Program-made: the position numbers and the translations under genes
From: Pseudomonas lopnurensis
GTDB lineage: Bacteria > Pseudomonadota > Gammaproteobacteria > Pseudomonadales > Pseudomonadaceae
Length of the DNA stretch: 60,327 nucleotides
Direction of reading: 5' to 3'
Assembly: GCF_015070855.1 (NCBI RefSeq)
Contig: NZ_JADDIX010000070.1
Coordinates: 1 to 60,327 of the forward strand
Shown: piece by piece, positions 1 to 36,310 of the stretch
Layout: each line of letters begins with the position of its first letter
Position numbering within the stretch: position 1 is the first letter of the stretch
Notes under the pieces: generated by a model
Told to the model about the DNA's origin: nothing
What the model saw: only the letters and a program-made list of their open reading frames with translations
Database searches by the model: none

Positions 1-767
1 GCGATGTACAGCTGCGGCGCGACGATCTTGCCGGTCTGGCCGACCTGCATGTCGTTCGGCACGAAACCGGCATCGACCGCGGCACGCGAGGCGCCGACTG
101 CCGCGCCGAGCTTGTCGGCCAGCGAGTACAGGTGCTTGAAGTTCTCGCCGTTCTGCATGCCGCGACCACCGGAAACGACGATCTTGGCAGCGGTCAGTTC
201 GGGACGGTCGGACTTGGCCAGCTCTTCGCCGACGAAGGCGGACTTGCCGGCGTCACCAGTGCCGGCGATCTGCTCGACCACAGCCGAACCACCGGTGGCA
301 TTCACGGCATCGAAGCCGGTGGCACGCACGGTGATGACCTTGATCGCGGCGCTGGACTGCACGGTCGCGATGGCGTTACCCGCGTAGATCGGGCGCTTGA
401 AGGTGTCCGGGCTTTCCACCGAAATGATTTCGGAAATCTGGTCGACGTCCAGCTGGGCGGCGACGCGCGGCAGGAAGTTCTTGCCGTTGGTGGTGGCAGC
501 CGCCAGCACGTGGCTGTAATTGGATGCCAGGCCGGCGATCAGCGGCGCGACGTTTTCCGGCAGTTGGTTGGCGTAGGCGGCATCGTCGGCGACCAGCACC
601 TTGGCCACGCCTTCGATCTGCGCGGCCGCCTCGCCGATGGCGCCGCAGCCGCTACCGGCCACCAGCACGTGGATGTCTCCGCCGATCTTGGCAGCGGCAG
701 CGACGGTGTTCAGAGTAGCGGCCGCGAGGACGGCATTGTTGTGTTCAGCGATAACCAGGATAGCCAT
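1..767 (-). CDS. etfA: Electron transfer flavoprotein alpha subunit (3' end outside window)
   Basis: The alpha subunit of the ETF heterodimer carries FAD and passes electrons from acyl-CoA dehydrogenases to ETF:ubiquinone oxidoreductase. The visible ~255 residues begin [10 protein letters not shown] and show the usual N-terminal alpha/beta domain. They end in the start of the FAD domain, with the conserved VVSGGRGM motif near residue 210 and [11 protein letters not shown] just after. The final ~55 residues lie beyond base 1. The start codon (765-767) directly abuts the etfB stop codon, so the two are translationally linked. It closes a nine-gene minus-strand operon of beta-oxidation and transport genes, so it probably serves the acyl-CoA dehydrogenase at 10718-11872. 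Whether a second, housekeeping etfBA exists elsewhere cannot be seen here. Confidence 0.95.
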
Positions 768-1517
768 TTAGATTACCTTCGCCTCGTTCTTCAATTTCTC
801 GACCAGTTCAGCCACGGACTTGACCTTGATGCCGGCGCTGCGGCCGGCCGGCGCTTCGACTTTCAGGGTCTTCACGGTGGAAGTGGTGGTGACGCCCAGC
901 GCATCGGGGGTCAGCACTTCCAGCGGCTTCTTCTTGGCCTTCATGATGTTCGGCAGCGAGGCGTAGCGCGGCTCGTTCAGGCGCAGGTCGGTGGTGACGA
1001 TCGCCGGCAGGTTCAGCGCAACGGTCTGCAGGCCGCCGTCGATTTCGCGAGTGACGTTGACCTTGTCGCCCGCCACTTCCACCTTCGAGGCGAAGGTGCC
1101 CTGGGCGTAACCGGTCAGTGCGCCGAGCATCTGCCCGGTCTGGTTGTTGTCGCTGTCGATCGCCTGCTTGCCGAGGATGACCAGTTGCGGCTGCTCCTTG
1201 TCGACCACCGCCTTGAGCAACTTGGCCACGGCCAGGGAATTCAGTTCCTCGCTGGACTCGACCAGCACGGCGCGGTCGGCGCCCAGTGCCAGCGCGGTGC
1301 GCAGTTGCTCCTGGGCAGCGGTCGGACCGATGGAGACGACAACGATTTCGCTCGCCACGCCCTTCTCTTTCAGGCGCACGGCTTCTTCCACGGCGATTTC
1401 GCAGAAGGGGTTCATCGACATCTTGACGTTGGCGAGATCGACGCCGGACTCGTCCGCCTTGACGCGAACCTTGACGTTGTAGTCGACCACTCTTTTGACT
1501 GTTACCAATATTTTCAT
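768..1517 (-). CDS. etfB: Electron transfer flavoprotein beta subunit
   Basis: The beta subunit of ETF (249 aa, normal length) binds AMP and docks with the alpha subunit. The protein starts [14 protein letters not shown] and contains the family features [17 protein letters not shown] (about residue 35) and [10 protein letters not shown] (about 90). A longer in-frame start at 1559 exists, but the start at 1517 is preferred because GGAGACC lies just upstream and the family N-terminus begins there. It lies 38 bp after tctA. Placement at the end of a transporter/beta-oxidation operon suggests a pathway-dedicated ETF. Confidence 0.96.
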
Positions 1518-1555
1518 AAGGTCTCCGATTGCAGGCACCACAGAGGTGGCGGCGA

Positions 1556-3031
1556 TCAATGGGTGCGTAGCGATTGCAGGTAGCGGCGCAAGGCAAAGCC
1601 CAGGGAGAGCACCGTCAGGGCTATGAAGAACCAGTCGATGGGGCCACGAACGAACACATCGAAACTGTTATTGCTGATCAGCAGGGAACGACGGAAGTTG
1701 TCTTCCAGCATCGGCCCCAGGATGAAACCGATCAGAAATGGCGCCGAGGCGAATCCGGTACGGTTGAAGATGAAGCCGACCAGGCCGAACACCAGCATGA
1801 CCGCGATATCGAAGGTGCTGTTGTTCACCGCGTAGGCGCCGTAGATGCAGAACATCAGCACGATGGGGAACAGGATCTGCTTGGGCACATCGGCAATTCG
1901 GGAGAAATACCGGATCGCCAGTTTGCCGGTACCGAACAACACCACGGAGCTGAGCATGATGCCGCAGAACAGGGCATAGATCAGGTTCATGTTTTCCTGG
2001 AACAGGATCGGTCCGGGCGTCAGTCCATGGATCATGAAGGCGCCGAGGATGATCGCGGTGATCACGTCGCCGGGGATGCCCAATGACAGCAGCGGAATCA
2101 TGGTCGCACCGGCGACCGCGTTGTTGCCCGATTCGGCCGCGGCCACACCTTCCACTTCACCCTTGCCGAAATTGTCCCGGTTGGGGGAATTACGGCGTGC
2201 TTCCGAATAGGAGATGAACGAGGCGGCCGTCGCGCCAGTGCCCGGAATGGCACCGATGATCACGCCGATGAAGCTGCCTCGAATGATGCTGCGCATGCTG
2301 CCTTTGAGTTCCTGCCAGGTCAGGTCGGCACCGGTCACGGCGGTCTGGATGTGCTCACGGGCCCGCGATAGATAGAACTCGAGTATCTCGGGAATGGCGA
2401 ATAGACCAATCAACAGTGGGATGAAGTTGATGCGATCCATCAGGTTGTAATTGTCGAAGGTCAGGCGCTCGGTACCGTAGACCGGGTCCATGCCAACCAG
2501 CGCGAGTATCACACCTATAGCAGCAGCGACCAGTCCCTTCATCACCGAATCACCTGAAACGGAAATGATGATGGTCAGCGAGAAGCAGATCAGCCAGAAA
2601 TACTCCGGCGGCCCGAAGCTGAGCGCCAGCTTGGCCAGGTAACCGGCCAGGAAGATCAGCGACAGATTGGAGATGAAGTCGGCGATACAGGACGCGTACA
2701 GCGCCATGGACAGCGCTTTCTTGGCTTCACCCTTCTGCGCCATCGGGTAACCGTCCAGCAGCGTGCTGGCCGACGCCGGGGAACCGGGGGTGCGGATCAG
2801 GATGGCGGTGATCGATCCGCCATACATGCCGCCCTTGTAGATCCCGACCAGCAGCAGGATCGCGGTGACCGGCTCCATGCCGAAGGTGAACGGCAGGGCC
2901 AGGGCGACCGCCATGGTCGCGGTCAGCCCGGGAATGGCACCGATCACGACGCCAATCACCACGCCGAGCGCGATCATCAGGATGTTTTCCACGCTCAGGA
3001 AAAGGCTGAGCACCTCGAGCATCTGGTCCAT
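1556..3031 (-). CDS. tctA: Tripartite tricarboxylate transporter large permease (TctA family)
   Basis: The large membrane subunit of a TTT-family importer, 491 aa, the usual size (about 500). The hydrophobic sequence is consistent with about 11-12 membrane segments and carries the TctA hallmarks [14 protein letters not shown] (about residues 31-45), [12 protein letters not shown] (about 63-75) and [13 protein letters not shown] in the second half. It works with TctB and the periplasmic binding protein TctC, encoded just upstream, to import carboxylates using the ion gradient. The family transports citrate, other tri- and dicarboxylates and aromatic acids, so the name does not fix the substrate. 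Linkage to CoA-transferase and beta-oxidation genes suggests a dicarboxylate or similar organic acid. Confidence 0.93.
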
Positions 3032-3055
3032 TTCATAGTCTCATCAAGCGGGTAC

Positions 3056-3562
3056 TCAATATCCCCAGAGCGACCCATAAGGCAGGGGAACATTCAGGCC
3101 ATAGTCGAAGGCCAGGCAGATACCGACCGGCATCGCGACACCCAGCAGATAGATGCCGATGCGCCTGACGCCCATGGCGACGAACAGCAACATCGTGGCC
3201 AGCACGCCACAGACCGCCGCGCCCAGCAGTTCCAGCCCGAAGTAGTAGACGGCGAAGGCCAGCAATGGCAGCAGCCATTGACGGACCGGCAGGTCCCGCA
3301 GTTTGCTGTACTTTTCTACCCGCTCACGCTCCGGGCCGAACAGCGTGCCTAGCACCAGGCCGATACCAAGCAACAGAATCAACCACCCCATGATCTGAGG
3401 AAGGATCAGGGGCGACAGTAGAGGTGACTGAAGCCTGCGTGGCTCCACGATGTACTCTGGAACCAGGTAAAACAGAAACGTCAGGGATGTCGCGATCAGA
3501 GCCAGACTGACAGCGGCGTCGGCGCTGGCAAGCCTGGACAGGCGAATAGCAGTGTTTTTCAT
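3056..3562 (-). CDS. tctB: Tripartite tricarboxylate transporter small permease (TctB family)
   Basis: A 168-aa membrane protein with four predicted helices, at about residues 17-33, 52-72, 95-125 and 130-150. This is the size and layout of TctB, the small membrane subunit of TTT transporters. TctB proteins are poorly conserved, so the call rests on topology and position between tctC and tctA, with 24 bp to tctA and 58 bp from tctC. No function independent of the transporter is expected. Confidence 0.88.
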   Translation of the reverse strand: MKNTAIRLSRLASADAAVSLALIATSLTFLFYLVPEYIVEPRRLQSPLLSPLILPQIMGWLILLLGIGLVLGTLFGPERERVEKYSKLRDLPVRQWLLPLLAFAVYYFGLELLGAAVCGVLATMLLFVAMGVRRIGIYLLGVAMPVGICLAFDYGLNVPLPYGSLWGY

Positions 3563-3620
3563 AAATCTACCCAGTCAGACAGGGGCGTCGCACGGCGACG
3601 CCCTGCGAAGCTGCAGTGGT

Positions 3621-4604
3621 TTATTCGCCGAGGCCGGCGGCCTCGACCAGATCAGCCCACTGCTTGATATCCCGCTCGACCATGGCCTTGAACGCGTCAC
3701 CCGACTCCTTGCCGGCGACAGCGCCCAGCTGAGGCAGGAAGTCCTTGAACGCCTGGCTTTGCATGACATTGGTGACTGCGACCTGCAATTTTTCGTAGGC
3801 CTCGTCGGACATCGATGCGCTGCCGATGAGACCGAACCAGGCCGACGTCGCGAAGTCGGACAAGCCTTGTTCGGCACCGGCGGACTTCACGGTCGGCACG
3901 TCCGGCAGGAAGGGCGACGCCTCGCTGGTGGTGACTGCCAGTACGCGCAGCTGCCCGGACTTGATCATCGGATAGACCGTCGGCAGGTTCTCGAATGAAA
4001 AGTCGACATCGCCCGACAGCAGTGCCGGAAGCGCCTCGCCACTGCCACGGAACGGAACGTGGGTCATTTGGGGCGCGCCGATCTTGGCTTTGAACAGTTC
4101 CCCCGACATATGGATGGAGCTGCCGATACCGGGCGAGCTGTAGGATGTCTTCTCGGTTTTCGCGGCTTGCAAGAACTCCTCGAAGGCCTGGAACCTGCTC
4201 TTGGCCGGTACGACCAGGACGTTGGGGATGTCGATGACGTTCTGAATGAAGCGGAAGTCCTTTACCGGGTCATAGGACAGCGGGTACAGGCTCGCGCCAA
4301 CGGTGTGCCCCGGCGAGGCCATCAGTACGCGGTAATCGGCATCGCGCTTGGAAACCCGGGCCAGCTGCGCGGTGGCAACCGTGGTACCGGCACCCGGGCG
4401 GTTCTCGACGATCACGGTCACACCCAGTTCCGTGCCCAGCAGGTCGGCCACCCGGCGGGACAGGATATCCGTGGTACCGCCGGCGGCATACGGAACGACC
4501 AGCGTGATGTTCTTGGACGGCCAATCGGCAGCCTGGGCGCTCGCGCCGAGCAGCGGGAGGAACACGGCAGTGCTCGCCACCAGCATTTTCATCAACTTGT
4601 TCAT
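3621..4604 (-). CDS. tctC: Tripartite tricarboxylate transporter periplasmic solute-binding protein (TctC/Bug family)
   Basis: A 327-aa Bug-family periplasmic receptor. A Sec signal peptide is evident (residues 1-25, cleavage after GASAQA). The mature protein shows the family landmarks: ITLVVPYAAGGTTD (about 33-46), VENRPGAGT (about 66-74), HVPFRGSGEALPALLSGDVD (about 182-200) and the late PDVPTV motif. It captures the substrate and presents it to TctAB. It sits 103 bp downstream of the CoA-transferase gene and 58 bp before tctB, all on the same strand. The ligand cannot be read from the sequence; the family binds carboxylates. Confidence 0.92.
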   Translation of the reverse strand: MNKLMKMLVASTAVFLPLLGASAQAADWPSKNITLVVPYAAGGTTDILSRRVADLLGTELGVTVIVENRPGAGTTVATAQLARVSKRDADYRVLMASPGHTVGASLYPLSYDPVKDFRFIQNVIDIPNVLVVPAKSRFQAFEEFLQAAKTEKTSYSSPGIGSSIHMSGELFKAKIGAPQMTHVPFRGSGEALPALLSGDVDFSFENLPTVYPMIKSGQLRVLAVTTSEASPFLPDVPTVKSAGAEQGLSDFATSAWFGLIGSASMSDEAYEKLQVAVTNVMQSQAFKDFLPQLGAVAGKESGDAFKAMVERDIKQWADLVEAAGLGE

Positions 4605-4707
4605 ATTATCTCTCTTGTGGTTGCGTATTTGATGGCCCGGCGCAGTCGCAACATGACCGGGCGAACGTCCAGCTCAGGCAGTGAGCCAGTACCGGTTAAC
4701 GGATGAG

Positions 4708-5940
4708 TTATTCGAGCTGTTCGATGACCCCCTTGTTCTTCAGCAGCTCCAGCGCATCGGCTGAAAGTCCAAGCCGGGACTTCAGCACCTGCTCCGTGTG
4801 TTCACCGAGCATCGGTGCCGGCCGCTGGTACTCGACCGGGGTATCGGAAAGCTTCACCGGGCTGCCGACCATCCTGAAGTCCGGGTTCCTGGCGTGCGGG
4901 ATGTTGACCAGCATGTCGCGGGCCAGCACTTGCGGCTCGGCCAGGGCACGGCCGATGTCGTTGATCACGCCGACCGGCACCTTTGCCGCGTGAATCCGGC
5001 TCACCCAGTTGTCGGCGGTATCCTTCAGGAAGCGCTGGGCGAGCAACCCGACGATGGCCTCGCGGTTGCGCACGCGATCGGCGTTCTTGGTGAAGCGCGG
5101 GTCCAGCGGCAGTTCCGGCAGGTCGATGGCATCGCACAGGGCGACGAACTGGGTGTCGTTACCGCAAGCGATGATGAAATCCATGTCGCTGGCGGTGAAC
5201 ACCTGATACGGCACGATGTTCACGTGGGCATTGCCCTGCCGCCCCGGCGAGCGGCCGGTGCTCAGGTAGTTCTGGCTCTGGTTGCCCAGCGCCGCCACCT
5301 GCACATCCAACAGCGCCATGTCGCAATGCTGGCCGCGACCGGTCTTTTCACGGGCGAGCAACGCGGCCTGGATCGCGATGGTCGAATACAGACCAGTCAT
5401 CACGTCGGCCACGGCCACGCCCACCTTCTGCGGGCCGGCACCCGGCACACCGTCCTTCTCGCCGGTGACGCTCATCAGGCCGCCCATGCCCTGGATGATG
5501 AAGTCGTAGCCGGGCTCCTCGGCGCGCGGGCCGGTCTGGCCGAAACCGGTGATCGAGCAGTAGACCAGACGCGGATTGAGCTTGGACAGGCTGTCGTAGT
5601 CCAGCCCGTACTTGGCCAGCGAGCCGGCCTTGTAGTTCTCGATCAGCACGTCGGAGGTGGCGGCCAGCGCGCGCACCAGCTCCTGGCCTTCCGGCGTGGC
5701 GATGTTGACGGCCACCGACAGCTTGTTGCGGTTGGTGGACTGGTAATAGGACGCCTCGAGGCTGTTCTCGCCGTCCGGAGTTTTCATGTAGGGCGGGCCC
5801 CAGCCACGGGTGTCGTCACCCACGCGCGGACGCTCGACCTTGATCACTTCGGCGCCCAGGTCGGCCAGAACCTGGCCGCACCAGGGACCAGCCAATACAC
5901 GACTCAGGTCCAGCACCCGAATCCCACTCAATGCACCCAT
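4708..5940 (-). CDS. Class III (CaiB/BaiF family) CoA-transferase
   Basis: A 410-aa class III CoA-transferase that moves CoA between acids through an aspartyl-thioester intermediate. The start LSGIRVLDLSRVLAGPW and RVGDDTRGWGPP (about 40-50) are typical of the branch that includes succinyl-CoA:glutarate CoA-transferases. By alignment in the mind to formyl-CoA transferase, the catalytic aspartate should be Asp179 in the VGVAVADVMTG segment. Placed between the thiolase and the binding-protein gene, it probably activates the imported acid using succinyl-CoA or acetyl-CoA made by the pathway. The acyl acceptor is inferred, not shown. Confidence 0.9.
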   Translation of the reverse strand: MGALSGIRVLDLSRVLAGPWCGQVLADLGAEVIKVERPRVGDDTRGWGPPYMKTPDGENSLEASYYQSTNRNKLSVAVNIATPEGQELVRALAATSDVLIENYKAGSLAKYGLDYDSLSKLNPRLVYCSITGFGQTGPRAEEPGYDFIIQGMGGLMSVTGEKDGVPGAGPQKVGVAVADVMTGLYSTIAIQAALLAREKTGRGQHCDMALLDVQVAALGNQSQNYLSTGRSPGRQGNAHVNIVPYQVFTASDMDFIIACGNDTQFVALCDAIDLPELPLDPRFTKNADRVRNREAIVGLLAQRFLKDTADNWVSRIHAAKVPVGVINDIGRALAEPQVLARDMLVNIPHARNPDFRMVGSPVKLSDTPVEYQRPAPMLGEHTEQVLKSRLGLSADALELLKNKGVIEQLE

Positions 5941-6011
5941 GTCTCTTACCTTTCCAACGCGGCCGACGCGGAACGCCGCCGGCCTGGTTCACATGGCCAA
6001 AGGCCTTTTGC

Positions 6012-7214
6012 TCAGACGCGCTCGATGACCATGGCCAGGCCCTGGCCGACACCGATGCACAGGCTGACGACCGCATAGCGCTTGCCGCTGCGCTGCAGTT
6101 CACGCGAGGTGGACAGCGCCAGACGCGCGCCAGAAGCCCCCAGCGGGTGGCCCACGGCGATGGCGCCACCGTTGGGATTGACGCGCGGGTCGTCGAAGGC
6201 CACGCCCAGGCCCTTCAGGCAGCCCAGCACCTGGGAGGCGAAGGCTTCGTTGATTTCGATGATGTCCATGTCGGCCAGGCTCAGGCCAGCGCGGGCCACT
6301 GCCTTGTTGATGGCTTCCACCGGACCGATACCCATGATGCGTGGCTCGACGCCGGCAGCTGCGGCCGAAAGAATGCGCGCCATCGGCTTGAGGCCGTGCT
6401 TCTCGCCGGCGGCCTGACTGCCGATCAGCAGCGCGGCGGCGCCGTCGTTCACGCCCGAGGCGTTACCGGCGGTGACCACGCCGTCTTCGAACAGCGGGCG
6501 CAGCCTGGCCAGTGCGGCCATGTCGGATTGCGGACGCGGATGCTCGTCCTCGGCGATCACGCTCGGCGGGGTCTTGCGGCCGGTCGGCACGCTCACCGGC
6601 AGGATCTCCTCGGTGAAGAAACCCGCCTGGCGGGCGGCTTCGAACTTGGCTTGCGACGCGGCGGCGAAGGTGTCGGCCGCTTCACGGCTGATGCCGAATT
6701 CGCGGGCCACGTTGTCGCCGGTCTGCGGCATGCTGTCGTTGCCGAACTGCTCGATGAGCTTCGGGTTCGGGAAGCGCGCGCCGATGGTGCTGTCGTACAC
6801 CGTGAAGTCGCGGCTATAGGCCTTTTCGGCCTTGGCCATGACGAACGGGGCGCGTGACATGCTTTCCACGCCGCCGGCCACGAACAGCTCGCCCTCGTCG
6901 CAGGTGACGGCGCGGGCGGCATCGATGACCGCGGCCAGGCCGCTGGCGCACAGACGGTTGACGGTCTGGCCGGGCACGCTGACCGGCAGGCCGGAGAGCA
7001 GCACGGCATGACGGGCGATGTTACGGCTGTCCTCGCCGGCCTGGTTGGTATTGCCGAGGATCAGATCGTCGACGGCGGCGCCGTCGATGCCGGTACGGGC
7101 GATCAGCTCGCGGATCACGTCGGCAATCAGATCATCCGGGCGAACCGGCGCCAGACCACCGCCGTGGCGTCCGAAGGGTGTACGCAGGCCTGCGTAGATG
7201 TAGGCGTTCAGCAT
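6012..7214 (-). CDS. Acetyl-CoA acyltransferase (thiolase; 3-oxoadipyl-CoA thiolase-like)
   Basis: A 400-aa degradative thiolase with a complete active site: nucleophile Cys89 in NRLCASG, His356 in GGAIAVGHPLG, and Cys386 in SLCIGVGQG, plus NEAFA. The N-terminus (AYIYAGLRTPFGRHGG) and overall length resemble the PcaF/PaaJ 3-oxoadipyl-CoA thiolases, which release succinyl-CoA and acetyl-CoA. The GGSG substitutes seen here are within family range. It follows the 3-hydroxyacyl-CoA dehydrogenase by 23 bp, with AGAGG before the start. Substrate preference (dicarboxylyl versus plain 3-ketoacyl-CoA) is inferred from this resemblance and from the adjacent CoA-transferase. Confidence 0.9.
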   Translation of the reverse strand: MLNAYIYAGLRTPFGRHGGGLAPVRPDDLIADVIRELIARTGIDGAAVDDLILGNTNQAGEDSRNIARHAVLLSGLPVSVPGQTVNRLCASGLAAVIDAARAVTCDEGELFVAGGVESMSRAPFVMAKAEKAYSRDFTVYDSTIGARFPNPKLIEQFGNDSMPQTGDNVAREFGISREAADTFAAASQAKFEAARQAGFFTEEILPVSVPTGRKTPPSVIAEDEHPRPQSDMAALARLRPLFEDGVVTAGNASGVNDGAAALLIGSQAAGEKHGLKPMARILSAAAAGVEPRIMGIGPVEAINKAVARAGLSLADMDIIEINEAFASQVLGCLKGLGVAFDDPRVNPNGGAIAVGHPLGASGARLALSTSRELQRSGKRYAVVSLCIGVGQGLAMVIERV

Positions 7215-7237
7215 GACGATACCTCTATGGAAAGCGG

Positions 7238-8767
7238 TTAAACGGCGGACGGCTCATCCAGGCGCAACGACAGCCCCAGCTGAGCACGACGACGCAGCCA
7301 GGGGCTCGGGCGGTAACGCGGGTCATTGGTCACGCTCACCATGCGCTCGAGTATGGTCAGCAGGCGACGCGGGCCGAGGTTGTCGCCCCAGGCCAGCGGG
7401 CCCTGCGGATAACCCAGCCCCAGACGTACGGCCTGGTCGATGTCCTCGGGGCTGGCGATCCGCTGCTGGGCGATGTCGCAGGCCAGGTTGACCACCATGG
7501 CCAGCACGCGCTGGGCCACGAAGCCGACACTGTCGCGGATCACGGTGACGCCCACGCCATCGCGGGCGAACAGCGCATGGGCGGCAGCGCGCATGTCCGG
7601 ACGGGTGGCCGGATTCATCATCAGCGTGCGGTGGCGAGACAGGTCGGTCAGCAGATCAATGCACAGGGTACGCGCGGCATCCACGCCGAAACGGCTGGTG
7701 GCGGTGGTGGCGTCATCGCCGTAGGGCGCGATCAGGCACAGCGCCTGCTCGGAAGGATGATCGCCCTCCTCCACCTGCGCACCCAGCGCATCGAGCAGCC
7801 CAACCAACTTTTGCCGGTCGACCGCGTTCTCGCTGGCGACCCACACCGGCGGCAACTGCTCGACGCTCGGCACCGGTTGCGGTTGCGGCGCATCGACCAT
7901 CTGGCCGTTCTGATAGCGGTAGAAGCCCTGCCCCACCTTGCGGCCCACGCGACCGGCCACCAGCATCTGGCGGGTCAGCGGCGACGGCGTGTAGCGCGGG
8001 TCGTGGTAGAACTGGTTGAAGATGGATTCCATCACCGGATGGGAAACGTCCAGCGCGGTGAGGTCGAACAGCTCCAGCGGGCCCATGCGGAAACCGGCGC
8101 CCTCACGCAGGATGCGGTCCACCTCGCCTTGCTGGGCGACACCCTCGCCGAGGATCTTCAGGGCTTCGGTGCCGTAGGCACGGCCGGCGTGGTTGACGAT
8201 GAAACCGGGAGTGTCCTTGGCGCGCACACCGGTGTGCCCCATGCGCCGGGCCAGCTCCAGCAGGGCATCGCTGACGGCCGGATCAGTGGCGATGCCGTCG
8301 ATGACTTCCACCACCTTCATCAACGGAACGGGGTTGAAGAAGTGAAAGCCGGCGACCCGCTGCGGATGCCGGCAGGCGGTGGCGATGGCGCTCACCGACA
8401 GCGACGAGGTGTTGGTCGCCAGGATGCACTCGGCGTCGACGATGCCTTCCAGCTGGGTCAGCAGGCCACGCTTGGCATCCAGATTCTCGACGATGGCTTC
8501 CACCACCATGTCGCAATCGGCGAGTTCCTCGATGGCGGCGACCGGCTTGAGCAGCGCCAGGGCAGCGTCGGCGGCGTCCTGGGCGATCTTGCCCTTGGCC
8601 ACCAGTTTGCCGAGGGTGGCCGCGAGATTGTCGCGCGCGGTCGAGGCAGCGCCTTCACGGGCATCGTACAGACGCACTTGCACGCCAGCCTGCGCCGCGA
8701 TCTGGGCGATGCCGGCACCCATAACGCCGGTGCCGACCAGCCCCATGATGTTGATCGAGCGAGCCAT
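7238..8767 (-). CDS. 3-hydroxyacyl-CoA dehydrogenase, PaaH/PaaC type
   Basis: A 509-aa NAD-dependent 3-hydroxyacyl-CoA dehydrogenase. It has an N-terminal Rossmann domain with GLVGTGVMGAGIA (residues 9-21) and the catalytic His142-Glu154 pair in FHFFNPVPLMKVVEVI. Two C-terminal dehydrogenase domains follow (about 190-290 and 400-500, the second with RVLAMVVNLACDIA and LGYPQGPLAWGD). This long double-C-domain form is typical of PaaH/DcaH enzymes acting on 3-hydroxyadipyl-CoA and relatives, rather than of the short ~290-aa butyryl enzymes. The gene begins 2 bp after the enoyl-CoA hydratase stop codon, so translation is coupled. Confidence 0.9.
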   Translation of the reverse strand: MARSINIMGLVGTGVMGAGIAQIAAQAGVQVRLYDAREGAASTARDNLAATLGKLVAKGKIAQDAADAALALLKPVAAIEELADCDMVVEAIVENLDAKRGLLTQLEGIVDAECILATNTSSLSVSAIATACRHPQRVAGFHFFNPVPLMKVVEVIDGIATDPAVSDALLELARRMGHTGVRAKDTPGFIVNHAGRAYGTEALKILGEGVAQQGEVDRILREGAGFRMGPLELFDLTALDVSHPVMESIFNQFYHDPRYTPSPLTRQMLVAGRVGRKVGQGFYRYQNGQMVDAPQPQPVPSVEQLPPVWVASENAVDRQKLVGLLDALGAQVEEGDHPSEQALCLIAPYGDDATTATSRFGVDAARTLCIDLLTDLSRHRTLMMNPATRPDMRAAAHALFARDGVGVTVIRDSVGFVAQRVLAMVVNLACDIAQQRIASPEDIDQAVRLGLGYPQGPLAWGDNLGPRRLLTILERMVSVTNDPRYRPSPWLRRRAQLGLSLRLDEPSAV

Positions 8768-8769
8768 GT

Positions 8770-9555
8770 TTATTTCCCGCAGTAGGTGGGTTTACGCTTC
8801 TCGAAGAAGGCGGCGGCGCCTTCCTTCTGATCAGCGGAATCGAACAGCAGCTGGAACGCCTTGCGCTCCAGGGTCAGTGCACTGTCCAGCGGCAGATCGG
8901 CGCCGGCCAGCATCACTTCCTTGATCTGTTGCACCGCCAGCGGCGGCAGCGCGGCGATCTCGCTGGCCAGGGCCAGGGCGCGCCCAAGGGTCTGATCGTC
9001 CGGCACCACTTCGCTGACCATGCCAATGGCCAATGCCTCGGGCGCCTTGACCATGCAGCCGGTCAAGGCGATGCGCATGGCCTGGAACTTGCCGACCGCG
9101 CGAATCAGGCGCTGGGTACCACCGGCGCCCGGCATCAGGCCGAGCTTGACTTCCGGCTGGGCGAAGCGGGCCGACTCGCCGGCCACGATGATGTCGCAGT
9201 GCATCGCCAGTTCGCAGCCGCCGCCCAGGGCGAAGCCGTTGACGGCAGCGATGACCGGCTTCGGGCAGCGGGCAATCGGCTCCCACAGCAGCTCGGTGTG
9301 ACGGCCATACATCTCGATCGGCGAGGCGCTGGCAAACTCCTTGATGTCCGCCCCCGCCACGAAGAACTGCTCGCCCCCGGTAAGCACGACGGCGCGAATG
9401 TCGTCGCGCCGGGCGAGCGCGCGGAAGTACTCGGCCAGCTGATGGCGAACGGCTGCATTGAGCGCGTTCTTGGCGTCGGGACGGCTGATACGCACGAGGG
9501 CGACACCGTCGGCCGGGTACTCCAGCAGCACGACTGGATCGATTGGTTGACTCAT
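8770..9555 (-). CDS. Enoyl-CoA hydratase/isomerase
   Basis: A 261-aa crotonase-fold enzyme hydrating 2-enoyl-CoA to 3-hydroxyacyl-CoA. The oxyanion and acid/base motifs are intact: AGADIKEF (67-74), NGFALGGGCELA with Glu115, and FAQPEVKLGLMPGAGGTQRL with Glu135. The start at 9555 (MSQPIDPV) is preferred over the longer frame from 9582 because CCGGAG stands 7-8 bases upstream and the family begins there. It is the first gene of the nine-gene minus-strand operon. An IclR-type palindrome at 9584-9600 lies about 30 bp upstream of the start codon. Confidence 0.92.
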   Translation of the reverse strand: MSQPIDPVVLLEYPADGVALVRISRPDAKNALNAAVRHQLAEYFRALARRDDIRAVVLTGGEQFFVAGADIKEFASASPIEMYGRHTELLWEPIARCPKPVIAAVNGFALGGGCELAMHCDIIVAGESARFAQPEVKLGLMPGAGGTQRLIRAVGKFQAMRIALTGCMVKAPEALAIGMVSEVVPDDQTLGRALALASEIAALPPLAVQQIKEVMLAGADLPLDSALTLERKAFQLLFDSADQKEGAAAFFEKRKPTYCGK

Positions 9556-9583
9556 TTCGGCTCCGGTTTGATCATGCAACAAT

Positions 9584-9600
9584 GCCCGCTATGCGAAATT
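9584..9600. promoter_or_regulatory. Putative IclR-type operator, operon side
   Basis: The core CGCTATGCGAA, read on the other strand as TTCGCATAGCG, is an IclR-family style palindrome. A near copy lies at 9745-9763. This copy is about 30 bp from the start codon of the minus-strand catabolic operon, so binding could block or activate that promoter. Assignment to the adjacent regulator is inferred. Confidence 0.55.
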
Positions 9601-9744
9601 CCATTCCACGCTTTGACCAAATAATAGGTTCCAACTTCGTTTTTTGTAAATGTCGCTTCTTGTAGATACGTCGTTATCCTCAGCAAAGGCCCATTGCACG
9701 GACGTTTGAGAGACAAAAAACTTTCCGCATGTCGCAGTTGCCGA

Positions 9745-9763
9745 ATGTCCGCTATGCGGAATA
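9745..9763. promoter_or_regulatory. Putative IclR-type operator, regulator side
   Basis: CCGC-TAT-GCGG inverted repeat within TTCCGCATAGCGGAC (opposite strand). It repeats the core of the 9584-9600 site and lies about 45 bp before the iclR start. A third, weaker half-match (TTCCGCAT) is at 9723-9730. The pair fits a divergent promoter controlled by one dimeric or tetrameric IclR protein. Confidence 0.55.
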
Positions 9764-9804
9764 CAATTTCGAAAACTTGATTTTATGAAAATGGAGGCTC
9801 TACC

Positions 9805-10653
9805 ATGCAACGCAAGATCAAGGATCGGTCCCCGGACAAGGACGCAGCTTCGGAGATCGAACGGGTACTGATCGATCCGATGTCGACCCTCGAGGAGGAG
9901 GAAAAGGATCGCCAGTTCGTCACCGCTCTAGCCCGGGGCCTGGAGTTGCTGCGCTGCTTCAGCCCGCGTGAAAGCGTGCTGAGCAATCAGGAGCTGGCCC
10001 GCAAGGCCAACCTGCCGCGGCCGACCGTCAGCCGGCTGACTTACACGCTGACGCGCCTGGGCTATCTGAAGCAGTTGCCCCAGGGCAAATACCAGCTGGA
10101 CGTCGGTGTGATGTCGTTCGGCTACGGGATGCTCTCCAACCTGTCGATTCGGGCTGTGGCGCATCCGCTGATGGAACAGTTGGCCAACCACGCCAGTGCG
10201 GCGGTGGCGATGGCGGCTCGGGACCGGCTACAGATGGTTTACCTGGACGTCGTGCACGGTCAGGGCAACCTCACGATGCGGCGCCAGGTGGGGACCCATC
10301 TGCCCCTGCATCTCAGCTCGGCGGGACGTGCATGTCTGGCCGGCCTGCCGGAAAGCGAATGTGATTTTCTGCTGGACCACATCCGTACCCGGCATGCGGA
10401 GGAATGGCCGAAGGTCCGCAAGAGCCTGGAAAAGGCCTTCCGGGACTACGCCGACTATGGCTATTGCCTGTCGATTGGCGAATGGCACCGGGATGTGAAT
10501 GCGGTTGCCGTGCCCATGGTGCATGCGCAACACGGGCTGCTGGTTTTCAACTGCGGCGGCCCGAGTTTCCAGCTCTCGCGCGAAAAGCTGGAAGAGGACA
10601 TCGGACCGCGACTGGTCCACATGGTGAGCAACATCGAGGCCAGCACCCGCTGA
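9805..10653 (+). CDS. IclR family transcriptional regulator
   Basis: A 282-aa IclR protein. The N-terminal winged helix spans about residues 38-100: ALARGLELLRCF, then ELARKANLPRPTVSRLTYTL as the recognition helix, then YQLDVGVMSFGYG. A GAF-like effector domain follows (about 110-275), with LSSAGRACLAGLP as a family landmark. The unusually long acidic N-terminal extension (about 35 residues) precedes the DNA-binding domain. GGAGG is well placed upstream. It resembles PcaR/PcaU/DcaR-type regulators of aromatic and dicarboxylate catabolism. Its position between the divergent catabolic operon and the acyl-CoA dehydrogenase gene makes it the obvious pathway regulator; whether it activates or represses is unknown. 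Confidence 0.92.
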   Translation: MQRKIKDRSPDKDAASEIERVLIDPMSTLEEEEKDRQFVTALARGLELLRCFSPRESVLSNQELARKANLPRPTVSRLTYTLTRLGYLKQLPQGKYQLDVGVMSFGYGMLSNLSIRAVAHPLMEQLANHASAAVAMAARDRLQMVYLDVVHGQGNLTMRRQVGTHLPLHLSSAGRACLAGLPESECDFLLDHIRTRHAEEWPKVRKSLEKAFRDYADYGYCLSIGEWHRDVNAVAVPMVHAQHGLLVFNCGGPSFQLSREKLEEDIGPRLVHMVSNIEASTR

Positions 10654-10717
10654 TGGAGATGCGGGTCGTGCCTCGTCGACATGACGCGTCCGACCATCGG
10701 ACCCCCGAGGAGCACAC

Positions 10718-11872
10718 ATGATCCGCGATCCGGAAACTCTGCAAATCCTGCTGGATTCCATCCGCCAGTTCGTCAACGAAGCGCTGATCCCGCGCGAAAA
10801 CGAGGTCGCCGAAACCGACTCGATGCCGGTGGACATCGTCGAGCAGATGAAGGAAATGGGCCTGTTCGGCCTGACCATTCCGGAGGATTTCGGCGGTCTG
10901 GGCGTGACCATGGAAGAGGAAGTGAACATCGCTTTCGAACTGGGCCGCACGTCCCCGGCGTTCCGCTCCTATATCGGCACCAACAACGGCATTGGCTCCA
11001 TCGGCATCCTGCTCGACGGCACCGAGGAGCAGAAGGCCAGGTACCTGCCCAAACTGGCAGCCGGCGAGTTCCTCAGCGCCTTCTGCCTGACCGAGCCGGA
11101 CTCCGGCTCCGATGCCGCCTCCCTGAAGACCACCGCCGTGCGCGACGGTGAGTTCTACGTCATCAACGGCACCAAGCGTTTCATCACCAACGCACCGCAA
11201 GCCGGCATCTTCACCGTGATGGCTCGAACCAACCGTGAAATCAAGGGCGCCGGTGGCATCAGCTCGTTCATCGTCGAGGCCAACACGCCTGGTGTCACCG
11301 TCGGCAAGCGCGACCACAAGATGGGCCAGAAAGGCGCCCACACCGCCGACGTGATTTTCGAGAACGTCCGCGTGCCGGCCGGGAACCTGATCGGCGGCAA
11401 GGAAGGCGTCGGCTTCAAGACAGCCATGAAAGTGCTCGACAAAGGCCGTCTGCATATCGCCGCGCTCTCCGTGGGCGCCGCCGAACGCATGCTCGCCGAC
11501 TCGCTGCAGTACGCCATCGAACGCAAGCAGTTCGGCCAGCCCATCGCCGAGTTCCAGCTGATCCAGGGCATGCTGGCCGACAGCAAGGCCGAGATCTACG
11601 CCGCCCGCTGTATGGTGCTGGACGCCGCGCGCAAGCGCGACGAAGGCCTGAACGTGAGCACCGAAGCCTCCTGCGCCAAGATGTTCGCCACCGAGATGTG
11701 CGGTCGCGTGGCCGACCGAGGCGTGCAGATCCACGGTGGCGCCGGCTATGTCAGCGAATATGCCATCGAGCGCTTCTACCGCGACGTGCGGCTGTTCCGC
11801 CTGTACGAGGGCACGACCCAGATCCAGCAGGTCATCATCGCCCGCAACATGATCCGCGAAGCACAGCGCTGA
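10718..11872 (+). CDS. Acyl-CoA dehydrogenase
   Basis: A 384-aa FAD acyl-CoA dehydrogenase introducing the first double bond of beta-oxidation. It contains LTEPDSGSDAASL (about 125-137, FAD/substrate binding), the middle beta domain with FITNAP, RKQFGQPIAEFQLIQ (about 270), and catalytic Glu364 in RLYEGTTQIQ. GAGGAG precedes the start. It lies 64 bp downstream of iclR and is probably co-transcribed with it. The rest of the pathway (hydratase, dehydrogenase, thiolase, ETF) lies on the divergent operon, which otherwise lacks this step, so the enzyme probably completes that route. The substrate is inferred to be the CoA ester made by the class III CoA-transferase. Confidence 0.93.
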   Translation: MIRDPETLQILLDSIRQFVNEALIPRENEVAETDSMPVDIVEQMKEMGLFGLTIPEDFGGLGVTMEEEVNIAFELGRTSPAFRSYIGTNNGIGSIGILLDGTEEQKARYLPKLAAGEFLSAFCLTEPDSGSDAASLKTTAVRDGEFYVINGTKRFITNAPQAGIFTVMARTNREIKGAGGISSFIVEANTPGVTVGKRDHKMGQKGAHTADVIFENVRVPAGNLIGGKEGVGFKTAMKVLDKGRLHIAALSVGAAERMLADSLQYAIERKQFGQPIAEFQLIQGMLADSKAEIYAARCMVLDAARKRDEGLNVSTEASCAKMFATEMCGRVADRGVQIHGGAGYVSEYAIERFYRDVRLFRLYEGTTQIQQVIIARNMIREAQR

Positions 11873-11886
11873 CAGCCGAGCCTGTC

Positions 11887-12792
11887 TCAGCCCGGGCCGG
11901 AGGCCAGCCGCGCCGCAATGAAGTCTACGAAGGCCTTGATCTTCGGCAGCGGCTGTCGGCTGGAAGGCCACAAAATACTGAGCGTACGCCGGTCCTGGAT
12001 ATAGCTATCCAACAACGGGACCAGGCGTTGCTGCTCGATGGCCTCAGCCACGATGAAGTCCGGCAGGCAAGCAATGCCCTGCCCGGCTTCAGCCATCGCC
12101 AGCAGCGGGTCCACCGCATTGGTGACGGCGGTCTGCGGCAGATCCAGGCTCAGGCATTTGTCGCCAGCGAACAGGGGCCAGGCGTCCAGCTTGCCGCTGG
12201 ACGGGTAGCGGTAGTGAAGGCAGGCATGCGCTGCCAGGTCTGCAGGGACCGTGGGCTCGCCACGGCGCGCGAGGTAGTCCGGCGTGGCGACCAACCGATG
12301 GCTGAAGCCATTGAGCCTGCGCATCATCAAGCGGGAATCCTGCACTTCGCCGATGCGCATCACCGCATCGAAGCCTTCCTCGATGACATTAACCAGGCGG
12401 TCGCTGAAATCCAATTCCAGTTCTACCGCGGGATACGCCTGTTGGAAGGCGATCAGATGCGGCATCAAGCGCATGCCCAGTTGCGGCAGGCTGATGCGCA
12501 GCTTGCCCTGGGGATTGCCGGCTGCTTGAGTCAGTTCGCGCTCAGCCACTTCCAGCTCGGCAAAGATGCGGTGGCAGCGCTCGAGGAACAAGGCGCCCTC
12601 GGCCGTGAGGGTGATCGCCCGGGTCGAGCGATGAAAAAGCCGCACCCCGAGGCGTTCCTCGAGACGGGTCACGGCCTTGCCGATGGCCGATGAAGACAGC
12701 TCCAGCCGCCGCCCGGCCTCGGTGAAGCTGCGCGCTTCGGCCGCATGAACAAAGGCGGACAGCGCACCGAGCTGGTCCATCTTGGCGCTCAT
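11887..12792 (-). CDS. LysR family transcriptional regulator
   Basis: A 301-aa LTTR. The N-terminal winged helix-turn-helix (about 8-65) contains ARSFTEAGRRLELSSSAIGKAVTRLEERLGVRLFHRSTR, followed by the periplasmic-binding-protein-like effector domain. AAGGATG precedes the start at 12790-12792. It is divergent from the luciferase-like monooxygenase at 12927 with a 134-bp AT-rich gap, the classical arrangement for a LysR gene and its target. It converges on the acyl-CoA dehydrogenase gene, with only 14 bp between the stops. The effector is unknown. Confidence 0.9.
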   Translation of the reverse strand: MSAKMDQLGALSAFVHAAEARSFTEAGRRLELSSSAIGKAVTRLEERLGVRLFHRSTRAITLTAEGALFLERCHRIFAELEVAERELTQAAGNPQGKLRISLPQLGMRLMPHLIAFQQAYPAVELELDFSDRLVNVIEEGFDAVMRIGEVQDSRLMMRRLNGFSHRLVATPDYLARRGEPTVPADLAAHACLHYRYPSSGKLDAWPLFAGDKCLSLDLPQTAVTNAVDPLLAMAEAGQGIACLPDFIVAEAIEQQRLVPLLDSYIQDRRTLSILWPSSRQPLPKIKAFVDFIAARLASGPG

Positions 12793-12926: not shown

Positions 12927-13943
12927 ATGCCGTCCACCGCTTCCTATCCAGCATTACCCAAGGAGCTTGCCGAACACCGCGGGTATGCCCGCGTGTTCCA
13001 ACCCGGACATCTGACCTTCGGTTTTATCGCTCCACTGGAAAGCTATCCCGACAGCCCCGGTCCCACCTTGGCGGACCATGGCGCCATGGCGCGCAAAGTC
13101 GACCAGGCCGGCTTTTCGGCCATCTGGCTGCGGGACGTGCCGTTCTACGATCCCAACTTCGGTGACGTCGGCCAGATAATCGACCCGATGGTGTATGCCG
13201 GTTACCTGGCCGCCATCACGGAAAACATCGCCATCGGCACCGCCGGCATCGTTCTACCACTGCGCGACCCCTTGATTGTCGCCAAGCAGGCCGCCAGCGT
13301 GGACCAGTTGCTGGGTGGCCGTTTCATTCTCGGCCTGGCCACTGGCGATCGCCCGATCGAATACCCGGCATTCGGCAGTGATTTCGATAACCGCGCCGAG
13401 CGCTTCCGCGATGCCCTGGCGGTGGTGCGTGCCGCCACCGAGCGCGCCTGGCCCGTTCATGGCTCGGCCTACTACGGTGAACTGACCGGCAACCTGGACC
13501 TGGTACCGAAGCCCGCGGCGCCGCGCCTGCCGACGGTGGTTGTGGGCATGGCGGGCCAGACCATGGAGTGGATCGCGCAGAACACCGACGGCGTGCTGTG
13601 GTACCTCACCGATCCGGCGAAGATTCCCGACATCGTCAACCGCTGGCACCTGGCAAGCCAGGGGCAACCCTTCAAGCCCTACGGCTACGGCACCTTCTTC
13701 GATCTGGATGCCGACCCTGACCTGCCCCTGCAACCCGGCCGCGTGATGCGGGCCGGGCGCAACACCCTGATCGACCTGTGGCGCCGCCAGCAGGACCAGG
13801 GCGTCGCGCATGTAGCCTTGAACTTCAAGCCGCAGCGCCGCCCCGCCTCAGAGGTGATCGACGAGATGGGCGAGTACATCCTGCCGCATTTTCCCAGCCT
13901 GGCGCCGTCCCTGACGCCCCCATCCGCGCAACGGAGTCGTTGA
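12927..13943 (+). CDS. Luciferase-like (LLM class) flavin-dependent oxidoreductase
   Basis: A 338-aa TIM-barrel flavin enzyme of the bacterial luciferase superfamily. Visible hallmarks are ADHGAMARKVDQAGFSAIWLRDVPFYDP (about 50-75), GTAGIVLPLRDPLIVAKQAASVDQLLGGRFILGLATGDRP (about 108-148) and PVVVGMAGQT-like sequence in the second half. GAGG precedes the start. Such enzymes use FMNH2 from a partner reductase to monooxygenate or desulfonate small organics. It heads a plus-strand run of four genes (LLM, two TIM-barrel isomerases, LLM) with 1-58 bp gaps, likely one operon controlled by the divergent LysR gene. The substrate is not recognisable. Confidence 0.85.
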   Translation: MPSTASYPALPKELAEHRGYARVFQPGHLTFGFIAPLESYPDSPGPTLADHGAMARKVDQAGFSAIWLRDVPFYDPNFGDVGQIIDPMVYAGYLAAITENIAIGTAGIVLPLRDPLIVAKQAASVDQLLGGRFILGLATGDRPIEYPAFGSDFDNRAERFRDALAVVRAATERAWPVHGSAYYGELTGNLDLVPKPAAPRLPTVVVGMAGQTMEWIAQNTDGVLWYLTDPAKIPDIVNRWHLASQGQPFKPYGYGTFFDLDADPDLPLQPGRVMRAGRNTLIDLWRRQQDQGVAHVALNFKPQRRPASEVIDEMGEYILPHFPSLAPSLTPPSAQRSR

Positions 13944-13944
13944 C

Positions 13945-14745
13945 ATGCGACATGCTGCTCACGCCATGGATTTCATTTTCCAGACCAGGCTCGGCACTTA
14001 CCCACTGGCGGTGCAGTGCGAAATGCTCGCCGAACTGGGGTACCAGGGCATGACCGTTTCGTCCTGGAGTCCGGAGCTCAAGGAGCTGCCGAAGGTCAAG
14101 GCGGATTGGGGGCTCGATGTCGGCGGCGTCTATGCCATCTACCGCCAGGGACTGGAGGACTGGCTTGTCACGCTGTTCGAATCCATCGAAGGTTGCAGCA
14201 CCATCGAACTGGCCCTGCATTCGGGCGACAAGGTTCAGCAGCAGGACCTCCGGATGCTCGAGCGCTTGCTGCCGATCTGCGAGCGTCGCGACCTGCAGAT
14301 CGCGCTGTACCCCCATATCCGCTACGGCATGCAGACCACTACCGAAGCGGTGCAGCTGTGCGAGCGCTTCGACCACCCGCGCCTGGGCATTGTGTTCAAC
14401 GGCTATCACTGGTTCGCCATCCAGGAAGGCGAGCTGGAACAGCGGCTGGACGCACTTTGGCCCTGGCTTAAACAGGTGAACATCGCCGGCTGCCGGCTCT
14501 CGCCGTTGGGCTGGGGTGGCGCGGCGACCATCGAGCCCCTTGATGAAGGTGAAATGGACAATTTCGTGCTGCTGGGCGCGCTCGAACGCCGCGGCTACAC
14601 GGGTCATGTCGGCTTCCTCGGCTGGGAAAGCATGGGCGGCGATGTGCATGGCAATCTCCATCGCTCGCTCACCGCCTTCCGTTCCATGGAGCAGCGCCTG
14701 GCGCGCAATCCTCATTGGGCGCTGATGACGGACTTCCCCCGTTGA
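13945..14745 (+). CDS. Sugar phosphate isomerase/epimerase family protein (xylose isomerase-like TIM barrel), copy 1
   Basis: A 266-aa AP-endonuclease-2/xylose-isomerase-like TIM barrel. Family features include the MDFIFQTRLGTYPLAVQCEMLAELGY start, ERRDLQIALYPH (about 112-124), FNGYHWFA (about 150) and SPLGWGG (about 185). Acidic and histidine residues in these strands are probable metal ligands. It starts 2 bp after the stop of the LLM gene, with CGGAG eight bases before ATG. It is a clear paralogue of the next gene, sharing GYHW, SPLGWGG and many aligned positions. It probably acts on a hydroxylated or sugar-like intermediate in the same pathway; the reaction is unknown. Confidence 0.8.
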   Translation: MRHAAHAMDFIFQTRLGTYPLAVQCEMLAELGYQGMTVSSWSPELKELPKVKADWGLDVGGVYAIYRQGLEDWLVTLFESIEGCSTIELALHSGDKVQQQDLRMLERLLPICERRDLQIALYPHIRYGMQTTTEAVQLCERFDHPRLGIVFNGYHWFAIQEGELEQRLDALWPWLKQVNIAGCRLSPLGWGGAATIEPLDEGEMDNFVLLGALERRGYTGHVGFLGWESMGGDVHGNLHRSLTAFRSMEQRLARNPHWALMTDFPR

Positions 14746-14756
14746 AGGCCGCAGCA

Positions 14757-15578
14757 ATGGATACGCCGATGAGAAATCCCATCCATGCCCTGGATTCGTT
14801 CTTCTACACCTCCATGGGCGTCTACAGCTTCCAGGCCCAGTGCGAGATGGTCGCGGAGGTTGGCTACGACGCCATCACCGTCGCCGCCTGGGGCGGGCAG
14901 CCGCTGACCGATCTTTCGCAACTGAAGCACGTCAAGGCCAAGCACGGCCTGGATATCGCGGCGCTGTACATGGTGCTGCATGAAGGGCGCAACGACGAAG
15001 TGGTCCGGCGACTCGTCGAGTCCGTCGAGGGCGTGGAGCTGATCGAACTGGCGGTGCAGACCTCGGTCAACGGCGTGCCGGCGATTCTGAAGGTGATCGA
15101 CAGCTTGTTGCCCATCGTCGAGCGCCGCGGCCTGCGATTGGCCCTCTACCCGCATCGCAACCACGTCACGCAAACCACCTCCCAGGTCGTGGAGCTGTGC
15201 AACTACTACAGCCACCCGCAGCTGGGCGCAGTGTTCAACGGCTACCACTGGTACGCCAGCCAGGAAGGTGATCTGCAGGGCCGGCTGGATGCCATGCGCC
15301 CTTGGCTGATGCAGGTCACCACCTCAGGTTCGGCGCTTTCGCCGCTGGGCTGGGGCGGCGTGGCCACCATGGAGCCGCCCGATCGTGGCGAGCTGGACAA
15401 TTTCGCCCTGCTCGGCGTCCTGGCACGCATGGGCTACGCCGGGCGAATCGGCGTGCTCGGCTGGGATTACGGCGGCGACGTCTACCTGAAATTGCAGCGT
15501 TCCCTGCATGCCATGCACGGTATCCAGCAGCGCCTGGCGACCCACCCGAGCTGGGCGGACCTCCCGCTCAAGCGTTAA
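14757..15578 (+). CDS. Sugar phosphate isomerase/epimerase family protein (TIM barrel), copy 2
   Basis: A 273-aa paralogue of the preceding gene in the same fold: DSFFYTSMGVYSFQAQCEMVAEVGYD, ERRGLRLALYPHRNH, FNGYHWYA and SPLGWGG all align to it. The start at 14757 (MDTPMRN) is chosen over the frame opening at 14715, which would overlap the upstream gene by 31 bp; a further ATG at 14769 is also possible. GAAGG precedes 14757. The tandem duplication suggests two successive or alternative isomerisations, or a heteromer. The function is not recognised. Confidence 0.78.
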   Translation: MDTPMRNPIHALDSFFYTSMGVYSFQAQCEMVAEVGYDAITVAAWGGQPLTDLSQLKHVKAKHGLDIAALYMVLHEGRNDEVVRRLVESVEGVELIELAVQTSVNGVPAILKVIDSLLPIVERRGLRLALYPHRNHVTQTTSQVVELCNYYSHPQLGAVFNGYHWYASQEGDLQGRLDAMRPWLMQVTTSGSALSPLGWGGVATMEPPDRGELDNFALLGVLARMGYAGRIGVLGWDYGGDVYLKLQRSLHAMHGIQQRLATHPSWADLPLKR

Positions 15579-15636
15579 CCCTGGGACGGCGCTGCGATTG
15601 ACGCCAGCCCTCGCGCTTTATCCAACTGGAGTTCTT

Positions 15637-32525: not shown

Positions 32526-33977
<1,452 letters not shown>

Positions 33978-36294: not shown

Positions 36295-36310
36295 GGTGGG
36301 CCTCGCTGGT

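Follow-up and report, generated by a model that had tools for sequence, protein, structure and literature searches.

A probable adipate catabolic operon of Pseudomonas lopnurensis with an extra copy of the host electron transfer flavoprotein genes

In Pseudomonas jessenii GO3 a six-gene cluster (ORF4277-4282) has been proposed to act on adipate, and four of its products are caprolactam-induced; the parts of PMC6061476 that describe it list a coenzyme A (CoA)-transferase (1238 bp), a thiolase (1202 bp), a 3-hydroxyacyl-CoA dehydrogenase (1541 bp), an enoyl-CoA hydratase, an IclR regulator and an acyl-CoA dehydrogenase (ACAD; ORF4282, 1154 bp). AdpC (RPA4515) of Rhodopseudomonas palustris is described as a binding protein of the tripartite tricarboxylate transporter (TTT) type for diacids of C6 up to C8 or C9, and Bug27 as a quinolinate binder (abstract of PMC11452294). 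Furthermore, the electron transfer flavoprotein (ETF) genes etfA and etfB (printed as eftA and eftB) of Burkholderiales are reported by Wang and Chen (PMC6053082) to evolve in concert, with paralogues more alike within than between species. Here we analyze a stretch of 60,327 nt (the window), contig NZ_JADDIX010000070.1 (labelled C69) of the 100-contig draft genome of Pseudomonas lopnurensis GCF_015070855.1. Its first 12 kb carry an operon that is very likely an adipate catabolic unit, comprising the pathway proposed below and an extra ETF matched to that of the host. An earlier note on this DNA did not recognize the combination; actually, its enzyme core was published in 2018 for P. jessenii, since the six genes have the same make-up and order as that adipate cluster, judging from the published description. 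In the following, G numbers refer to genomes, C numbers to contigs of the window's genome and L numbers to fetched loci.

Gene content and probable substrate of the operon

The eleven genes claimed in the earlier note were all found on the strands it gave, nine on the minus strand with intergenic gaps of 0-103 bp, plus the divergent iclR and ACAD genes. Base 1 of the window is also base 1 of the contig and etfA is truncated there. The likely start codon of etfB at 1517 gives a protein of 249 aa, versus an open reading frame (ORF) start at 1559. The genes are as follows.

3-767, minus strand: etfA, ETF alpha subunit, first 255 aa, gene running off the contig (Pfam PF01012 and PF00766)
768-1517, minus strand: etfB, ETF beta subunit, 249 aa (PF01012, scanned from 1523; copies aligned)
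1556-3031, minus strand: tctA, large membrane subunit of the TTT transporter (PF01970, 516 bits)
3056-3562, minus strand: tctB, small membrane subunit of the TTT transporter (PF07331, 45 bits, gathering score 29.1)
3621-4604, minus strand: tctC, periplasmic solute-binding protein of the TTT transporter (PF03401, 180 bits; PDB relatives Bug27, 171 bits, and 5oei, AdpC, 147 bits)
4708-5940, minus strand: class III CoA-transferase, proposed succinyl-CoA:adipate CoA-transferase (PF02515, 437 bits)
6012-7214, minus strand: 3-oxoadipyl-CoA thiolase (NF006001 equivalog, 762 bits, cut-off 622)
7238-8767, minus strand: 3-hydroxyacyl-CoA dehydrogenase, PaaH-like, 509 aa (NF006124 subfamily, 765 bits, cut-off 508)
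8770-9555, minus strand: enoyl-CoA hydratase (NF006007 subfamily, 440 bits, cut-off 355)
9805-10653, plus strand: IclR-family regulator, PcaR/PcaU/PobR-like (PF01614, PF09339)
10718-11872, plus strand: ACAD, proposed adipyl-CoA dehydrogenase, 384 aa (NCBIfam and PDB acyl-CoA dehydrogenase matches)
11887-12792, minus strand: LysR-family regulator, role in the operon uncertain (matches to NCBIfam LysR models, none of those listed reaching its cut-off)

Named genomes were scanned with the CoA-transferase as query, and the best 80 loci are considered here (more exist); a relative is a hit with at least 50% identity over at least 50% of the length, hits of shorter coverage being dropped. An ACAD relative was found alongside the CoA-transferase in 51 of these 80 named loci. 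ACAD, IclR, hydratase and dehydrogenase relatives occur together in 42 (the core loci), all six core genes in 32, order not counted, and the set of ACAD, hydratase, dehydrogenase and etfB in 12. The co-occurrence in 42/80 and 12/80 loci indicates that the gene arrangement is more than chance, and in the window these genes are probably co-expressed.

We infer from the genes that the substrate is adipate or a near C6 diacid, as the earlier note had proposed; the thiolase, a linked cyclohexanone monooxygenase (CHMO) cluster and the match to the six P. jessenii genes all support it. The 3-oxoadipyl-CoA thiolase model NF006001 was the best for the thiolase and the only equivalog above cut-off, two other models of the same function being just short of theirs (NF006551, 563 bits, cut-off 605; TIGR02430, pcaF, 550 bits, cut-off 597).

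The CHMO cluster lies on another contig, C7. Three contigs (C15, C44 and C69) run into a common etfBA stretch and three (C7, C48 and C74) leave it. The 3' end of etfA on C7 matches that of the G043 operon copy, on C48 that of the housekeeping copies of G043 and G047, and on C74 etfA is followed by a 3-hydroxyacyl-CoA dehydrogenase gene. By this matching of contig ends, C7 is very probably the continuation of the window contig. It contains the following genes.

C7: sigma54-type regulator (DhaR model, 276 bits, below cut-off)
C7: CHMO (782 bits to 6er9)
C7: aldehyde dehydrogenase (920 bits to the succinate-semialdehyde dehydrogenase model, cut-off 828)
C7: two short-chain dehydrogenase/reductase genes, one before the CHMO gene and the second after the aldehyde dehydrogenase gene
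C7: OprB-family porin (407 bits)

Oxidation of cyclohexanone leads to adipate, and in the chn pathway for cyclohexanol it is a cyclohexanone monooxygenase and an aldehyde dehydrogenase that do so. A single contig of G023, and likewise of G050, carries within ~11 kb the CoA-transferase, the tct genes, etfBA and a CHMO gene 97% identical to that of C7, in a scan from which hits covering less than 45% of the query were dropped. Among the 80 named loci a CHMO relative is near the unit in six, namely L038, L045, L047 and L050 (all Pseudomonas), L071 (Sphingobium) and L072 (an Acinetobacter metagenome-assembled genome), and the four Pseudomonas loci, in which the linkage is contiguous, have after etfBA the same regulator as C7. 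In the remaining named loci no CHMO relative appeared within the fetched stretch. In addition, contig C57 of G039 has a 52% identical CoA-transferase ~4 kb from a 58% identical cyclohexanone monooxygenase, which suggests that this linkage is older or recurrent.

Several observations weigh against assigning the operon to adipate. The CoA-transferase, PaaH, PaaF, PcaF, PcaR and ACAD models were all below cut-off, so that the sequences do not fix the substrates: the best NCBIfam model for the CoA-transferase, succinate--glutarate CoA-transferase NF052585, gave 509 bits, not reaching its cut-off of 750 (341 bits were obtained to a PDB succinate--hydroxymethylglutarate CoA-transferase), the 3-hydroxyacyl-CoA dehydrogenase gave 458 bits to TIGR02279 (PaaH; cut-off 669), the hydratase 286 to the PaaF model (cut-off 371), the IclR regulator 127 to TIGR02431 (cut-off 285), and the ACAD (gene of 1155 bp) had no NCBIfam model above cut-off. 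TctC matches AdpC at the family level only and scores higher with Bug27, and by eye it appears to have a Tyr where the docking Phe of AdpC aligns. Finally, 36 of the 42 core loci lack a CHMO gene in the fetched stretch, and so do the operons of G043 and G047, the best case of gene conversion described below.

The unit might instead act on longer diacids (C7-C10) or a broad mixture, adipate being one of several substrates. AdpC binds C6 to C8 or C9 diacids by its description, so the TTT transporter need not be strict, and a beta-proteobacterial study by randomly barcoded transposon sequencing reports diacid genes with phenotypes across several chain lengths. However, the only thiolase equivalog above cut-off bears the name 3-oxoadipyl-CoA thiolase, the linked CHMO cluster points to a C6 acid, and elsewhere in this genome there is a pim-like operon (C15/C74), whose ACAD resembles PimD (below cut-off). 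We therefore regard longer chains as unlikely, and adipate as the better candidate. The nearest curated names of several enzymes (PaaH, PaaF, PcaF and PcaR) would also bring to mind aromatic catabolism of the phenylacetate or beta-ketoadipate type, with ACAD and TTT as accidental neighbours. The entry point of aromatic routes is an unsaturated or 3-oxo acid, for which an ACAD is not required. This role is hardly credible and was rejected, because an ACAD relative accompanies the CoA-transferase in 51/80 loci and all these Paa- and Pca-named models are below cut-off. Glutarate was rejected as well. The genome encodes a second class III CoA-transferase, 55% identical, that adjoins a glutaryl-CoA dehydrogenase gene (476 bits) and also misses the NF052585 cut-off of 750 (534 bits), indicating that glutarate has a separate route.

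The etfBA copies and probable gene conversion

The earlier note took the ETF of the operon as dedicated. In the sense of a specialized ETF this is not supported, because the operon has an additional copy of the etfBA genes beside the ETF:quinone oxidoreductase (ETF-QO) gene, to which it is identical over 1490 bp: this stretch is common to C15, C44, C69 and C7 with 0 mismatches, and the 255 aa of EtfA are identical on four contigs. Counting from contig ends, the genome has three near-identical etfBA copies. The first nine codons of etfB differ among C15, C44 and C69, whose sequences show no similarity ahead of the gene. On C44 the ETF-QO gene is divergent from etfBA, marking this as the housekeeping copy. 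Compared with it, the EtfA of the operon is the same over the sequenced 255 aa and EtfB differs only within its first nine residues. The third copy, on C15, belongs to the pim-like operon (if, as seems likely, C15 connects to C74), which encodes a cyclohexanecarboxylate-CoA ligase-like protein (758 bits, cut-off 792), the PimD-like ACAD (350 bits, cut-off 653), a FadJ-like protein, a PaaH-like dehydrogenase and a second 3-oxoadipyl-CoA thiolase (695 bits, cut-off 622).

Of the 56 genomes of the genus, 55 have etfB; in 10 of them, not counting the window's own, it is present in two to four copies. The housekeeping copy adjoins ETF-QO in the own genome, G043, G047, G023 and G050. Between G043 and G047 nine operon genes average 98.5% identity, with the operon etfBA at 93.1% and the housekeeping etfBA at 93.5%; within each genome the operon and housekeeping etfBA are 98.5% (G043) and 98.2% (G047) identical. 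The direction of conversion would be from host to operon, because the reverse would leave the housekeeping copies about as alike as the operon genes. In the aligned copies each locus has its own ends (the first nine codons and the last ~20-40 nt), which different species share at the same locus, and the cores are genome-specific in several genomes. In a tree of 42 core sequences (G026a_op, G037b, G037c, G054b, G024 and G052, among others, were left out by choice) the copies grouped by genome in the own genome, G043, G047 and G015. The two G003 copies were found with a near-identical pair from G050 and G017, and two copies each were joined in G023 and in G050, without the operon copies of these genomes. 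A single clade of the five operon copies was rejected by the approximately unbiased test (p 4e-35, with identical own-genome rows left free). The assemblies of G003, G015, G023, G043, G047 and G050 consist of one to five contigs each.

The identity of operon and own housekeeping etfBA was at least 96% in six of 16 genomes (window 100%, G043 98.5%, G047 98.2%, G065 97.4%, G066 97.1% and G063 96.6%). Two points count against a uniform rewriting of the operon copy. In the remaining ten genomes the identity was lower (G058 92.2%, G059 92.2%, G067 92.1%, G057 91.6%, G060 89.2%, G050 89.2%, G023 87.7%, G064 85.4%, G026 82.6% and G062 82.1%), so that conversion is not universal, and the 1490-bp identity comes from a draft, whose assembly could have evened out minor differences. 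For G060, G026 and G062 the identity was taken along the full etfBA pair, and the other values omit the first 40 aligned positions; in genomes reached via named loci the housekeeping copy was recognized by its start sequence only. From a set of 15 genomes, the count of 16 omits G056 and G068 (cut copies) and G069 (short pieces only), and it also omits G061 and G070, which are not Pseudomonas (three of the four G061 copies are cut). Some of the lower-identity genomes, such as G058, show blocks of high and low identity. The operon etfBA of G064 is 95.6% identical to that of G065 and their housekeeping copies are 86.9% alike, which fits a recent transfer in G064 with conversion yet to happen. As a whole, the pattern is consistent with gene conversion in the direction from host to operon; it is strong in six of the 16 genomes and weaker or absent in ten.

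Recent duplication of the housekeeping copy into each operon would likewise produce grouping by genome. Nevertheless, we rejected it as very improbable on account of the locus-specific ends, shared across species at the same locus. The operon position is also the same in genomes with and without homogenized cores, and alternating blocks such as those of G058 speak against it too. Gene conversion thus remains our preferred explanation. A truly dedicated ETF, functionally specialized for the ACAD, is quite improbable: etfBA closes the operon, and its sequence departs from that of the host copy in G023 (87.7%), G050 (89.2%) and G026 (82.6%), but in the window's genome both loci encode the same protein save for the first nine EtfB residues (EtfA as far as sequenced), and in several genomes the copies group by genome.

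Conversion by the host copy would keep the operon ETF matched to its host, and may persist for that reason. We give an even chance to a broader idea, that horizontally moving beta-oxidation operons carry etfBA as a 'landing copy' whose core is rewritten by the ETF genes of each host, the locus-specific ends being kept, fitting the operon to the host after transfer. If true, the second (pim-like) operon with the same core would point to a possibly general matching of transferred flavoprotein pathways to the host ETF-QO. A host-overwritten ETF copy inside a catabolic operon seems to be new; among the papers listed, from a literature that leaves out most subscription journals, we recognized no work on ETF gene conversion or concerted evolution in Pseudomonas or in catabolic operons. 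Besides, the start of the housekeeping etfB (ribosome-binding region and first nine codons, also at synonymous sites) hardly varies among the copies compared, and the operon copies differ there (for C44, see L011 near 16695). Possibly this region is a regulatory element that extends over the start codon.

Transporter and distribution of the unit

TctA, TctB and TctC are all present above the gathering scores of PF01970, PF07331 and PF03401. Within the genus the CoA-transferase was found at 76% identity or more in eight of the 56 genomes (own included). In five of these eight (own, G023, G043, G047 and G050) the tct genes stand between the CoA-transferase and etfB, and G026 has the CoA-transferase without tct at that place. 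In G021 the etfB and CoA-transferase hits directly adjoin; in the fetched stretch of G048 etfB was not found, and of the unit genes searched only the CoA-transferase was listed. Outside the genus scan, a tctA relative appeared in one of the 80 named loci (L033, Halomonas sp. 54_146) and weak tctC relatives (28-40%) in three more (L096, L099 and L104). A relative of a major facilitator superfamily permease (at least 55% identity) was found in 33 of the 42 core loci and 51 of the 80 named loci, one of which supplied the permease query. With TTT present in so few relatives, it seems that some lineages have exchanged their transporter for this one, which would not be a defining part of the unit. 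The TTT version of the adipate operon seems to be new.

The patchy occurrence (8/56) and the differing surroundings in G023, G043 and G050 (by eye) suggest that the operon is mobile. In addition, Pseudomonas marincola (L035) and G026 (L149) have ORFs of equal lengths and N-termini over ~12 kb, and L035 has recombinase- and transposase-like ORFs downstream of the operon stretch (both by eye); the likeness of the two loci points to a horizontally moved island.

As to the neighbourhood in the window, the LysR gene lies directly past the ACAD gene, and relatives of it (87% and 75%) are near the ACAD in L039 and L048. At 12927-16623 there are an oxidoreductase of the luciferase-like monooxygenase class (TIGR03571, above cut-off) and a second ORF that reads as a luciferase-type monooxygenase, with two related TIM-barrel-isomerase-like ORFs between them. 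Further on, window 34919-38150 and L143 12716-15884 contain ORFs with similar N-termini by eye (a Rossmann-fold protein, a short-chain dehydrogenase/reductase and a regulator-like protein). The L143 ORFs are located in G023 downstream of the CHMO cluster, and the window has a transposase-like ORF at 33291-33977 (by eye).

Proposed pathway and comparison with known systems

A TTT transporter in the operon, activation by the class III CoA-transferase and one turn of beta-oxidation, as previously suggested, are supported by the gene content, from which the reactions are predicted. The transporter would import adipate, or adipate would arise inside the cell from cyclohexanone via the linked C7 cluster. 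The CoA-transferase would then move CoA from succinyl-CoA, the presumed donor, onto adipate, and the divergent ACAD, the hydratase, the dehydrogenase and the 3-oxoadipyl-CoA thiolase would carry out a single turn of beta-oxidation yielding acetyl-CoA and succinyl-CoA. As succinyl-CoA is one of the products, the CoA donor would be regenerated. Electrons from the ACAD would pass to ETF and from there to ETF-QO, the etfBA pair providing an extra dose of the general ETF of the host under operon control. Local regulation is probably due to the IclR protein.

Adipate serves as a monomer for nylon and polyester. Native operons that join transport, activation and ETF would be useful parts for plastic upcycling, the TTT version being an alternative to the DcaKP uptake genes of engineered Pseudomonas. 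The findings on ETF concern the way in which an oxidation pathway, once transferred, is coupled to the respiratory chain of the host, with an accessory copy apparently kept uniform with that of the host and not specialized. For annotators, it indicates that the 'own ETF' of an operon need not be dedicated, and that a draft assembly may break at just such operons because of etfBA repeats, the window's genome being an example.

Among known systems, the dca genes of Acinetobacter baylyi (dcaAKIJP, used in engineered Pseudomonas) share with the proposed role of the window's unit the uptake of adipate and its entry into beta-oxidation. By their available description they are set apart by the DcaKP uptake genes, in place of which the window operon has a TTT transporter, together with a class III CoA-transferase (PF02515). 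DcaIJ is a two-subunit class I CoA-transferase. AdpC belongs to the same family of TTT binding proteins as TctC; it is described as an orphan, whereas the window tctC sits with tctBA in a catabolic operon. P. jessenii GO3 has the same six kinds of genes in the same order, a likeness that rests on the gene order and lengths given in the paper. Its description, in the passages available, mentions neither a TTT transporter nor etfBA, and the adjoining cluster makes adipate from caprolactam, not cyclohexanone. The Burkholderiales case (PMC6053082), whose main text is without the word Pseudomonas, differs from the present one, found in Pseudomonas and the window's genus, in that here one of the copies is part of a catabolic operon and the ends are locus-specific. 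Finally, the chn pathway of Acinetobacter sp. NCIMB 9871 (as named in PMC6061476) and the C7 cluster both have a cyclohexanone monooxygenase and an aldehyde dehydrogenase, but the C7 regulator is of the sigma54-dependent type and, in relatives, the CHMO genes are located beside the adipate operon.

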